Shown here: positions 7,138 to 11,346 of the stretch, in pieces
Layout: the number at the start of each line of letters is the position of its first letter
Numbering within the stretch: the stretch's first letter is position 1
Assembly (NCBI GenBank): GCA_016926875.1
Contig: JAFGNU010000073.1
Span: 62,001 to 126,000, forward strand
Direction of reading: 5' to 3'
Source: Anaerolineae bacterium
GTDB taxonomy: Bacteria; Chloroflexota; Anaerolineae; Aggregatilineales; Aggregatilineaceae
DNA: 64,000 nt
Translations under genes and position numbers: made by a program
The notes under the pieces: model-generated
The model's input: the letters and a program-made list of their open reading frames with translations, nothing else
The model's database searches: none
Told to the model about the DNA's origin: nothing

Positions 7138-7596
7138 ATGCCGCGCTTTCACATCCTTGCTCGACGCGCCGTACTGCTCACCTGGGGGCCGGTCCTGGTG
7201 ATGATGGCCGTATTGTTTATCGCGTCGGCCCAACCCAAATACGAACCGCCCGGCGGGGCGGACCGGATTTACTTCTCCGGCTTGATGCCGGTCTTTCCCG
7301 GCAGTTGGGAATTCCTGCTCAAAAAAAGCGGGCATATGATCGTGTTTGGGCTGCTGGCGCTGTCGATTCTGCGCGCCCTGCTGATAACCGGGGAGTCCCT
7401 GCGCAGCGCGTCCTACCTGGCGATCCTGATCACCGTCGGCTACGCGCTGACCGACGAGTATCACCAGTCATTTATCACGGGGCGCTATGCCTCACTGCTG
7501 GATATTGGCTTTGACACGGCGGGGGCAATCATCGCCACGCTGGGCGCACGCTGTGTGCTGGCCCGGCGTGCACCTGCCTACCCCGGTGCCACGTGA
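7138..7596 (+). CDS. VanZ-like membrane protein
   Basis: A 152-residue integral membrane protein of the VanZ-like family. It has about four hydrophobic segments (roughly residues 13-29, 67-80, 92-105 and 123-140). The family hallmark TDEYHQSFITGR follows the third segment and lies before the last. VanZ itself gives low-level teicoplanin resistance, but most family members have no proven role, so no function is assigned beyond the envelope location. The last 19 bp overlap the 3' end of the convergent B12-binding gene. Confidence 0.8.
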   Translation: MPRFHILARRAVLLTWGPVLVMMAVLFIASAQPKYEPPGGADRIYFSGLMPVFPGSWEFLLKKSGHMIVFGLLALSILRALLITGESLRSASYLAILITVGYALTDEYHQSFITGRYASLLDIGFDTAGAIIATLGARCVLARRAPAYPGAT

Positions 7597-9245
7597 TCAC
7601 CCGCCGCCCGGATCGCGGCGATCCGGGTCGTTTCGTCTACCGGCACGCCATGCGCATCAACCGTCCATAACGCCCCGTCGATACTTCGCGTGCGCACCCG
7701 TCCGGGCGCGTAGCGATTGTTGATCAACTGCGGCGCGTCCAGCAAGCCCAACGCTACCGCCTGCGCCAGCACATCCGGGCTGCTCAGCGGATCGTCCTCG
7801 CCCGGTCCCAGTTCGCGGATAGCATCGATCAGCCGGTGTGTTTCCCCGATCAACTGTTCCTTGCGCCTTTGGATACGCGGGTCTGCGGTCATGTCAGGAT
7901 TGCCGCGCAGCGCCGTGTCGATTACTTCCTGCGTCATGACCGCGCTTTCGATCACTTCGTCCGCGGTGGCCGCATGATCGGCTTCGCTGTAGCCCACTAC
8001 GTGCACGATGTGCGGGCGCAGCGCCATCTGCAACATCATGCTCTGCGCCAGGTGCGCGCGTGCCCGGCGCATATCGACCGGGTAGCTCAGCAGGCCGGTG
8101 CGCGTCTGCCGCCAGATGCGGAAATCGTCAGCGGCGAATGCTTCGGTCAGTTCCACGACGGCCAGCGCCCGCGCCAGGTCCATACCATTCGACAGCATGG
8201 GCGGACTCTGGAACATATACGTCATGATGTAATCGCGCACGCCAAACCGCCGGGCGTTGTGCGCGTACAGGTAGGCCGACGCGCAGACTACCACGTCCGG
8301 CGCGTCGCGCATTCCCCAGTGATAGGATTCGTTGCCTTCGACCGGAATATCACGCTCGCCGTGCCATTCCATTAACTGCTGGTGTTCACGAATCGACCGG
8401 GCCAGCGGCGATGGGCCGCGCCCGTCCATGTCGTTGAACCAGAACAACGACGTTGCGCACCACGCGTTCTGGATCGTGCGAACCAGCAGGTCCGCGTACC
8501 GGATATGATCCGCCGTGCCCGAATATGAGCGGAGCAGCGGGAAATTGCCCCGGCGGCTGGCCTCGTACAACGTCACCAGGTCGTCCTCGGTGCGGAACGG
8601 CACACCGCCCGCCCCGGTGCGCCTGGGGTCTTGCCTGACGGGATGGAAAAAGTGCGCCTGTGCGTCCTGGTCTGCGCCCAGTGAGATCACATCCAGCGCA
8701 CCTGACCCGGCAATGCGCGCGATACCATCTACCGTCGGCGCAATCGTCTGCGCGGGGATGCCGAAGTGATGCCGCAAGATGGGAGACGGCGCTTTCCAGC
8801 GGATACGCTCAACGGCCCGCTGTGGAAAATCCGCCAGGCGGGCCTCATCCACCACCTGCCCTTCCAGCGCCAGCCGCACCAGGTGCGGGGATTCCTCGCC
8901 CGAAAACACCGCGTCGAAATACCCCAGTTCACGGGCGACTGCCGCTACCGGGGGCGTCCCGCCAAACAAGATGCGCGCCCGCCCTAACACACCGGCGGCG
9001 TCCAGCATACCGCGCAGATCGTGCAGCAGTGTGCGAGCATTGTCGGGCGTCAGCCGGTAGCTGACCCCGATCACATCCGGGCCAAACGCCAGGATCGCGT
9101 CCACAAACGCTTCCAGGTCGGTCGCCGGGCCGGTAAAAAACGTTTCATACCCGGCATCCTCGGCCACTGCCAGGAAGCGCGTCACCCCCGCCACATGCAC
9201 ACAGTCCCCCAAACAGCCCGCCAGCACCTTTTTTTGATCGGGCAT
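7578..9245 (-). CDS. B12-binding, mutase-like protein
   Basis: The 555-residue product begins with a cobalamin-binding Rossmann domain (about 1-125), followed by what looks like an alpha/beta barrel (about 150-450) and a helical tail. The B12 motif is a variant: GDCVHVAG places His17 and Gly20 as in HxxG, but Asp14 is three residues before the His rather than two. SYRL (62-65) and GG (95-96) would be the SxL and GG elements. No four-helix methyl-corrinoid cap precedes the domain, which favours a mutase-type over a methyltransferase-type protein. The start at 9245 (MPDQKKVLAG) is chosen because GGGAGGGG lies just upstream; a longer frame begins at 9272. It follows the opine-dehydrogenase-like gene by 48 bp, so they are probably co-transcribed. 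The substrate is unknown. Confidence 0.7.
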   Translation of the reverse strand: MPDQKKVLAGCLGDCVHVAGVTRFLAVAEDAGYETFFTGPATDLEAFVDAILAFGPDVIGVSYRLTPDNARTLLHDLRGMLDAAGVLGRARILFGGTPPVAAVARELGYFDAVFSGEESPHLVRLALEGQVVDEARLADFPQRAVERIRWKAPSPILRHHFGIPAQTIAPTVDGIARIAGSGALDVISLGADQDAQAHFFHPVRQDPRRTGAGGVPFRTEDDLVTLYEASRRGNFPLLRSYSGTADHIRYADLLVRTIQNAWCATSLFWFNDMDGRGPSPLARSIREHQQLMEWHGERDIPVEGNESYHWGMRDAPDVVVCASAYLYAHNARRFGVRDYIMTYMFQSPPMLSNGMDLARALAVVELTEAFAADDFRIWRQTRTGLLSYPVDMRRARAHLAQSMMLQMALRPHIVHVVGYSEADHAATADEVIESAVMTQEVIDTALRGNPDMTADPRIQRRKEQLIGETHRLIDAIRELGPGEDDPLSSPDVLAQAVALGLLDAPQLINNRYAPGRVRTRSIDGALWTVDAHGVPVDETTRIAAIRAAGDHVAPG

Positions 9246-9293
9246 ATACCCCTCCCGTACATACGGATGCACAGTTACCAGCCGGTATGCCTG

Positions 9294-10442
9294 TCAGGAG
9301 GCCGCTTTGTCGCCCAGTTGGTTGCCCTCCGGCGGTGGTTGCACGCTGCCGGTTTGCACCAACCGCGTGATCTCGCGCAGCGACAGGCCCACCAGGCCCA
9401 TCCGCTCCAGCGTGCGCCCACGATAGCGATAATCTGTGCCGTCGATCACACATGCAAGCTGAATCATCGACTCGATCCCCCACACGTCCACGCCGAAGCG
9501 CCTGCCAAACTCGGCAATCGGCACCAGGCTGAACGGTACGTCTTCAAACAGGTAGCGGTGGCGCAGTGTACGCGGCGCTTGAATCCCCTTATAGCCGGGG
9601 TTGGCGTGCAGTGATTCGTACAGGTTCTTGCCATGCGCCGAATACGCCCGTACCAGCCATTCGCACGCCGTTTCTACCCGGATGCCCAGCGCCGTGGCAA
9701 CGGTGACGCGCTCGCGGTCCAGGCGTTCCAGCAGACAAGCGGTTGACGGCGTAACGCCATCGACATAAAACTCGAAATCACCGCCGGTCGCCTCGATCCA
9801 ACCGGCGTTCATCAAAACAAGAGCAGGATGAAACACCGCGCCCATGTTATTCAGGCTGGTGTGCAATACATTCGGCGCGGCGATAAACTGGGGATATACC
9901 TCTTGCACAATATCCAACACCTGCTGAGTGCCTGTCGCAGGCAGCGCCGCCAGCGGGACGGTGTTTTTGCGCCGGAAGATTTGGGCCTGGGCCGGGCCGG
10001 TACTCCGGCTGGCAAAAATAAACGTTTCAGCTTCGGCCACAATAACATTTGCCGTGCAACCGATCTCTTGCAGCGTGTTGCGGAACTCCAGCGCGCCCCC
10101 CGTCCGACCTGGGTTCAGCACCACGATCTGCCCATCTTGCAGGTGCGGCGCGCAGGCCAGTGCGACGTCACGATGGCCTGATGCCGGAAGCACTACCATT
10201 ACCAGGTGGGCACCATCCAGCGCACAGGCCATATCACTGGTGACGGTATCCAGCGAGCCAAAGCACTGCTGCCCGTCTTCCAGCGTGACCTCGATCCCGC
10301 CACGTGCAGCGATTGTTTCGATATTGTGGTAGCTGCGGTTATATAAGCGCACCGCATACCCGTGCACCGCCAGGTCAGCAGCCATCGCTTTGCCACCGTG
10401 CCCGGCTCCAACAACTGTGATTTGCAGTTCGCTGTCAAGCAT
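9294..10442 (-). CDS. Octopine/nopaline dehydrogenase family protein
   Basis: A 382-residue NAD(P)-dependent dehydrogenase. The N-terminal Rossmann fold has ITVVGAGHGGKAMAADLA, with GAGHGG at residues 12-17. The C-terminal half is the all-helical domain of the octopine/nopaline dehydrogenase family, with NNMGAVFHPALVLMNAGWIE matching its conserved Asn/His region. Known members join an amino acid to a 2-oxo acid by reductive condensation, or run the reverse reaction; the substrate here cannot be read from sequence. A GAGGAAGAG precedes the ATG. The B12-binding gene follows in the same direction, suggesting that both act on the same amino-acid-derived compound (inference). Confidence 0.82.
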   Translation of the reverse strand: MLDSELQITVVGAGHGGKAMAADLAVHGYAVRLYNRSYHNIETIAARGGIEVTLEDGQQCFGSLDTVTSDMACALDGAHLVMVVLPASGHRDVALACAPHLQDGQIVVLNPGRTGGALEFRNTLQEIGCTANVIVAEAETFIFASRSTGPAQAQIFRRKNTVPLAALPATGTQQVLDIVQEVYPQFIAAPNVLHTSLNNMGAVFHPALVLMNAGWIEATGGDFEFYVDGVTPSTACLLERLDRERVTVATALGIRVETACEWLVRAYSAHGKNLYESLHANPGYKGIQAPRTLRHRYLFEDVPFSLVPIAEFGRRFGVDVWGIESMIQLACVIDGTDYRYRGRTLERMGLVGLSLREITRLVQTGSVQPPPEGNQLGDKAAS

Positions 10443-10674: not shown

Positions 10675-11346
10675 CTAGGGTTTGAGGTAGTACGTCATAC
10701 GCTGGAGATGCACAACCGGATCAATGTACTGCACGTGCACGCCCGGTGGCACCGCCAATGTAATTGGCGCGTAGTTCAGGATCGCTTTCACCCCCGCCTG
10801 GACAAGCTGGTTTGCAACCAGTTGGGCCGCTTCTGCCGGAACGGCAATCATCGCCACCTGAACGCCCTGCCGCTGAATCTCCGTGCTCATTTGCTCCATT
10901 GGCAGTACTGACAGCCCGGCGATCTTTTCACCTATCACATCCGAGTTGTTATCGAACAGGCACGCTACCCGAAATCCCCGCGAGGCAAACCCCCGGTAAT
11001 GAGCAATCGCATGCCCCAGGTCGCCCACACCCACAACGGCAACCGGCCATTGGTGGTCCACGTGCAGGATATGCCGAATCTGTTCGGATAGATAGGCCAA
11101 GTTATAACCGGTGCCTTGCTTGCCAAACTCGCCAAAATGCGACAGGTCTTTCCGAATCTGGGCCGAACTGATCCCCAACCGCCCGCCCAACTCGTGAGAC
11201 GAAGTGTATTCTTTGCCTTCCTGAATCATGTGATTCAGCGCACGCAAGTAGATCGGCAGTCGTCCAATCACAATATCCGGTATACTCGAATTGCTCATCA
11301 CGGTCACTTTGGCAGCAGGCTCTGGCATCCGAAAAAGCCAAAACAA
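10675..11346 (-). CDS. rex: Redox-sensing transcriptional repressor Rex
   Basis: Rex binds DNA when NADH/NAD+ is low and releases it when NADH builds up, derepressing fermentative and respiratory genes. The product has the winged-helix signature [20 protein letters not shown] and a Rossmann domain with [14 protein letters not shown]. The start is a TTG at 11346. The minus strand reads AAAGGAGG eight bases before it, whereas the ATG at 11298 ([10 protein letters not shown]), where most Rex proteins begin, has no ribosome site. The chosen start gives 223 residues; the other gives 207. It is upstream of and co-oriented with the opine-dehydrogenase pair, 232 bp apart. I did not find a clear Rex operator nearby. 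Confidence 0.93.

Follow-up and report, generated by a model that had tools for sequence, protein, structure and literature searches.

A fused glutamate-mutase-like B12 protein and an opine dehydrogenase as a putative two-enzyme module for acidic amino acids in Anaerolineae

Introduction

The glutamate mutase of Clostridium cochlearium (1CB7/6H9E) consists of separate S and E subunits, GlmS and GlmE, carries the canonical DxHxxG motif in its B12-binding loop, and has methylaspartate ammonia-lyase as its partner. In GlmE, Arg66, Arg100, and Arg149 form the substrate-binding arginine claw, and Glu330 binds the ribose. The lysine 5,6- and ornithine 4,5-aminomutases (KamDE, OraSE), in whose pathways a dehydrogenase follows the aminomutase, belong by fold to the same superfamily of adenosylcobalamin (AdoCbl) mutases. 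The known reactions of AdoCbl mutases are few, and each addition to them usually marks out a pathway. Here we report the analysis of two adjacent genes, encoding a fused B12-binding/mutase protein and an opine dehydrogenase (ODH), in a 64,000-nucleotide stretch of an Anaerolineae bacterium from the Chloroflexota phylum (assembly GCA_016926875.1, contig JAFGNU010000073.1, positions 62,001 to 126,000), referred to below as the window. The source assembly comprises 3.75 Mb and is 86% complete.

The nearest solved structure to the window dehydrogenase (E 7e-78) is ArODH/CENDH, the N-(1-D-carboxylethyl)-L-norvaline dehydrogenase (1BG6), with which it shares the catalytic His-Asp dyad; unlike the window enzyme, ArODH has Ala111 and Asn198 and prefers apolar amino acids with NADH. 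Six hot-spring opine dehydrogenases (mODHs), about 40% identical to ArODH, have been purified and favour L-Asp, then L-Glu, with pyruvate and mostly NADPH (Telek et al. 2024, PMC10787698). With Asp, their KM is 0.5-25 mM and their kcat/KM 0.04-1.5 per s per mM (PMC10787698). A swap at ArODH positions 111 and 198 switches the amino acid preference, Ala/Asn leading to Phe and Arg/Gly to Asp, and Arg35 marks the acceptance of NADPH (PMC10787698). The mODH genes (sequences BK063522-BK063532) come from short-read assemblies that lack their genomic surroundings, and neither a physiological role nor a B12 partner was reported for them (PMC10787698).

In this study, we propose that the two genes rather probably encode a metabolic module of two enzymes, an AdoCbl carbon-skeleton mutase and an acid-specific opine dehydrogenase, that acts on acidic amino acids. 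Sequence, structure, or published residue-level data support the assignment of both proteins to their families, the functional link between them, and the signature of acid specificity; B12 binding and AdoCbl use by the mutase, the exact substrate, and the direction are inferred. An earlier note on this DNA had recognized both enzyme types and knew of no named pathway that joins them, and we likewise found no paper that does. Both types are already known; the subfamily of fused mutases with a cysteine in the B12 loop and its coupling to opine dehydrogenase appear to be new, as we found no description of either in the open-access literature searched.

Results and Discussion

Conservation of the gene pair

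Both open reading frames (ORFs) of the pair lie on the minus strand; the earlier note had already placed them on one strand, 48 bp apart. The ODH gene comes first (9294..10442, 382 aa, 39% identical to ArODH/CENDH), and 48 bp past its stop follows the ATG of the mutase gene at 9245 (7578..9245, 555 aa). The mutase ORF is also open to a GTG at 9272 (7578-9272, 564 aa), and mutase residue numbers below refer to this longer form. To assess conservation, we surveyed 80 loci from relatives, namely Anaerolineae and two metagenome-assembled genomes of Bacillota. An ODH gene adjoins the mutase gene on the same strand in 76 of them, in either gene order, and the pair is thus not confined to this genome. 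Among the four exceptions, L098 has just 19 bp upstream of the mutase gene, and L087, L094, and L146 show no ODH. The Bacillota genomes have the three-gene sets ODH-GlmL-mutase (L115) and GlmL-ODH-mutase (L136). Because the two genes are ordered differently in different clades, and the mutase tree requires at least two such changes, the linkage has outlived rearrangement.

The same association is seen at the level of genomes. Among 298 genomes of the class, a gene of the PF02317 family is present in 93 of the 96 that encode the mutase vs 11 of the 202 that do not (Fisher p 2e-60, uncorrected for relatedness), and the mutase family itself is present in roughly one in three of the Anaerolineae genomes sampled. 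One relative of the mutase, at L129, belongs to the cultured thermophile Bellilinea caldifistulae. A second subfamily of about 1240 aa, roughly 30% identical over the shared part, combines the B12 domain, the barrel, and MutL in one chain. Its genes adjoin those of a regulator of the RpiR type and an ABC transporter of the Opp type, and mostly also an ODH gene; an Opp-type transporter is also found at the L055 locus. We conclude that the mutase and the dehydrogenase are very probably coupled in function.

Acid-specificity signature of the linked dehydrogenases

The window ODH matches the Octopine_DH family (PF02317) with 161.7 bits, has an NAD(P)-binding Rossmann domain, and retains the catalytic dyad of His205 (9828..9830, ArODH 202) and Asp301. 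Alignment with ArODH and the published residue data (PMC10787698) place Arg113 (10104..10106) and Gly201 (9840..9842) at the two specificity positions, ArODH 111 and 198, and Arg36 at position 35. Arg111 and Gly198 occur together in all 75 linked dehydrogenases compared from relatives, 70 of which also have Arg35, and in 11 of the 12 ODH copies beside the MutL-fused form of the mutase; in unlinked PF02317 proteins of the same class, both residues are found in just 5 of 20. Many other cleft substitutions listed for the mODHs (14 H, 34 N, 36 T/S/F, 108 H, 154 R, 160 P, 253 R, 284 K, and 291 H; PMC10787698) recur in the linked dehydrogenases as well. On this sequence evidence, the linked dehydrogenases would fall in the same clade as the mODHs, and the window enzyme is likely to act on an acidic amino acid. 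The partner dehydrogenase therefore seems to belong to a subclass with six purified members, known substrates, and no known role. The pairing gives this subclass a testable one: the compound that its members handle would be what a B12-dependent mutase consumes or forms.

Fold and family of the mutase

The mutase matches the B12-binding family PF02310 with 45.4 bits (cut-off 32.1) and Met_asp_mut_E with 27 bits (cut-off 26.6); because methylmalonyl-CoA mutases also reach about 20 bits with the latter model, this match was not relied on alone. An AlphaFold2 model built from an alignment of 37 window-type proteins, with a mean predicted local distance difference test score (pLDDT) of 87.9 and a predicted template modelling score (pTM) of 0.81, was compared with known structures by Foldseek. 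The best PDB matches are the E chains of glutamate mutase (6h9e_B, E 2.5e-17; 1cb7_B, E 7.5e-17), followed by lysine and ornithine aminomutases (1xrs_A, 3kow), while the N-terminal domain of the model resembles GlmS-type and corrinoid-protein domains. The predicted fold thus has cobalamin-binding features, and it ranks glutamate mutase ahead of the aminomutases. In hhalign comparisons, the window mutase family aligns with true GlmE proteins of the phylum (L156-L159) over 385 columns through the C-terminus (E 5e-9), the alignment being colinear, whereas the methylmalonyl-CoA mutase profile yields a probability of just 0.8%. The window protein does not reach the NCBIfam equivalog model for methylaspartate mutase subunit E (13.9 bits vs a cut-off of 390).

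From the GlmE-first structure matches and the profile alignment we conclude that, as judged from sequence and model, the mutase joins a GlmS-like domain to a GlmE-like barrel that follows it in the same chain, with glutamate mutase as its nearest relative. The B12-binding Rossmann domain spans residues 15-124 (8901..9230; structural matches 1y80 and 1i9c_A), and the barrel residues ~162-440 (7953..8789). The placement of the B12 domain before the barrel, which the earlier note had pointed out, is correct and simply reflects this fusion into one ORF of what are separate subunits in glutamate mutase; in the acyl-CoA mutases (MCM, HCM, ICM), the order is the reverse. We have high confidence that the protein is an AdoCbl-type mutase; it would accordingly bind B12 and use AdoCbl.

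Cofactor loop and barrel residues

The loop that holds the lower axial ligand reads GDCVHVAG in the window protein and [DE]CVHxxG in its family. The earlier note described this motif correctly and read it as a change of spacing (DxxHxxG); it is better taken as Cys in place of the Asp of DxHxxG, with CVHVAG at residues 24-29 (9186..9203). Cys24, Val25, His26, and Gly29 are invariant in all 37 window-type proteins, none of which matches the canonical motif. Among the 80 loci, only L081 (CIH) and L089 (NDVH) depart from CVH. Across the wider family, it is the Cys that is invariant, and the preceding Asp or Glu is not kept in the fused subfamily. SYRL (residues 71-74, 9051..9062) occupies the position of the SxL motif, as noted earlier, and is invariant in the window-type family.

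Invariant residues of the barrel include R167, H169, DQxxQ (201-205), R248, Y250, NxxDGRGP (280-287), R391, E430, and H433. In local profile alignments, GlmE Arg66, Arg100, and Arg149 correspond to His169, Gln205, and Tyr250, all invariant, and Glu330 to the invariant Glu430. Because global alignments shift the claw positions by 1-7 residues, we limit our claim to the GlmE claw not being conserved in register.

Partner genes in relatives

Genes for GlmL adjoin the pair in relatives from both Anaerolineae and Bacillota, a further likeness to glutamate mutase; the MutL neighbour in L055 reaches 604 bits with the GlmL equivalog model (cut-off 475). In 15 loci there is an asparagine synthetase gene on the same strand, a distribution that requires at least eight changes on the tree, and in L083 this gene stands between the two genes (ODH-AsnB-mutase) with gaps of 10 and 13 bp; its recurrence fits aspartate-type substrates. 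Asparagine-synthetase-like proteins that lack the N-terminal glutaminase Cys are encoded in or near the pair operons at L110:4476-5846, L119:12893-14254, L127:5526-6890, and L147:252-1640, and L061 and L110 also carry a D-glutamate-cyclase-like gene. Taken together, the partner genes of relatives suggest acidic amino acids as substrates.

Proposed module and alternative explanations

In the proposed module, Co-C homolysis in the mutase would start a radical reaction that turns a linear acidic amino acid into a branched one and back, and the dehydrogenase would condense an acidic amino acid with pyruvate and NAD(P)H into an opine, or split the opine in reverse. A tentative scheme, which we regard as possible but somewhat doubtful, has the mutase interconvert glutamate and 3-methylaspartate, and the dehydrogenase interconvert 3-methylaspartate, pyruvate, and NADPH with N-(1-carboxyethyl)-3-methylaspartate. 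It is the simplest scheme, because central metabolites suffice and the three-gene set needs no extra enzymes, and it would account for the published mODHs being only modestly efficient with Asp. The Opp-type transporter and RpiR-type regulator would point to uptake and breakdown, while the preference for NADPH and the presence of AsnB might point to synthesis, and the direction may differ between clades. Such a module would explain an uncharacterised part of amino acid metabolism in widespread, mostly uncultured bacteria.

Four observations weigh against this proposal. With Cys instead of Asp in its B12 loop, the mutase could bind the cofactor less strongly or in another way. The occupation of the claw positions by His169, Gln205, and Tyr250 in local alignments means that the substrate need not be glutamate. 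A dedicated GlmL is missing from the window genome, at its 86% completeness, where a distant 610-aa protein is the sole MutL-like match, and methylaspartate ammonia-lyase was not found there either.

Of the alternatives, the one that survives best, although we consider it unlikely, is that the mutase rearranges the opine itself: the dehydrogenase would make N-(1-carboxyethyl)-aspartate or -glutamate, a tricarboxylate, on which the mutase then acts. The published ODH relatives turn over L-Asp and L-Glu directly (PMC10787698), and R167, R248, R285, and R391 are invariant near the displaced claw and could suit a larger, more negative substrate; however, the placement of these arginines depends on an alignment of 18% identity. 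We know of no AdoCbl mutase that acts on an N-carboxyalkyl amino acid. A broader and still less likely version has the mutase working on or supplying the opine at the core of an undescribed pathway for N-(1-carboxyethyl) branched acidic amino acids, the product of which would, in some Anaerolineae, be amidated or cyclised by the Cys-less synthetase of L110, L119, L127, and L147, much as beta-lactam synthetase acts on another N-carboxyalkyl amino acid. That the Cys-less synthetases are themselves beta-lactam synthetases was rejected, the two compared being nearer to AsnB.

The pair could instead contain an ordinary glutamate mutase for the classical methylaspartate (mesaconate) fermentation, with the dehydrogenase as an incidental neighbour, and the nearest structure, the adjoining GlmL genes of relatives, and the presence of the mutase in 8 of 14 genomes with true methylaspartate ammonia-lyase would all agree with it. 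We nevertheless judge this improbable: the linkage to ODH, at 76 of 80 loci and in 93 of 96 vs 11 of 202 genomes, is far from incidental, and the ammonia-lyase is absent from the window genome and from most genomes with the mutase (Fisher p 0.07) and is not among the recurrent neighbours annotated. Moreover, true GlmE is encoded as a separate protein alongside the fused mutase family in the genomes G040 and G072. An aminomutase of the lysine 5,6- or ornithine 4,5-type, dependent on pyridoxal phosphate (PLP) and B12, with ODH in place of the diamino acid dehydrogenase, is very improbable; 1xrs_A and 3kow are the next best structural matches and a dehydrogenase would be in keeping with those pathways, but the 37-protein alignment has no conserved lysine in the B12 domain at the place of the PLP Schiff base, which disfavours such an enzyme, the sole conserved lysine (K160) is a linker residue that the fused subfamily lacks, the ODH signature indicates acidic rather than diamino substrates, and the domain order differs from KamDE and OraSE, of whose pathways no recurrent neighbour was seen. 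A last alternative, which the axial loop without the canonical Asp might suggest, gives the B12 domain a sensing or structural function and the barrel no radical mutase activity; it is hardly credible given a barrel preserved at full length with invariant polar residues and tied to GlmL, which is known to reactivate AdoCbl mutases.

Other neighbouring genes and genomic observations

Rex lies just upstream of the pair, as noted earlier (10675-11346), but in a tblastn search no other genome has it next to the two genes. We therefore discarded Rex control of the pair, the operator evidence being within chance: the window has 11 Rex-operator-like matches vs 23 expected, and the one nearby, at 9434-9451 with two mismatches, lies inside the ODH gene. 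Neither the window segment nor any of ten related loci gave an Rfam match to a cobalamin riboswitch. Genes for P5C (pyrroline-5-carboxylate) reductase, VanZ, and an amidase were rejected as partners, as they are not conserved across the 80 loci.

A 610-aa MutL-like (PF13941) protein, L072 (G000:C5:31054-32409), distant from GlmL, is encoded beside small membrane-protein genes, and its relatives of about 600 aa are found in the majority of genomes of the class, both with and without the mutase. PF13941 is above its cut-off in 187 of the 298 genomes and, since most of these matches are to the distant protein of about 600 aa, is too widespread to be informative as a general marker; the MutL evidence was thus restricted to copies adjacent or fused to the mutase. 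Methylaspartate ammonia-lyase, weakly associated with the mutase at the Fisher p of 0.07 given above, was likewise set aside as a marker. Ten genomes (G009, G028, G062, G224, G272, G005, G049, G090, G177, and G285) have a true methylaspartate ammonia-lyase (219-351 bits) and no recognisable GlmE, and five of them carry the mutase of this pair.

Each of L055, L056, L057, and L058 has two tandem ODH genes between the GlmL and mutase genes, and in L055 position 35 of the upstream copy is Ala, which suggests a different use of cofactor. Beside the fused mutase, L045 has an AAT-family (PF03417) acyltransferase-like gene (L045:4095-5282) and L046 an amidohydrolase gene (L046:3064-4716), both of which are possible hints to an imported compound.

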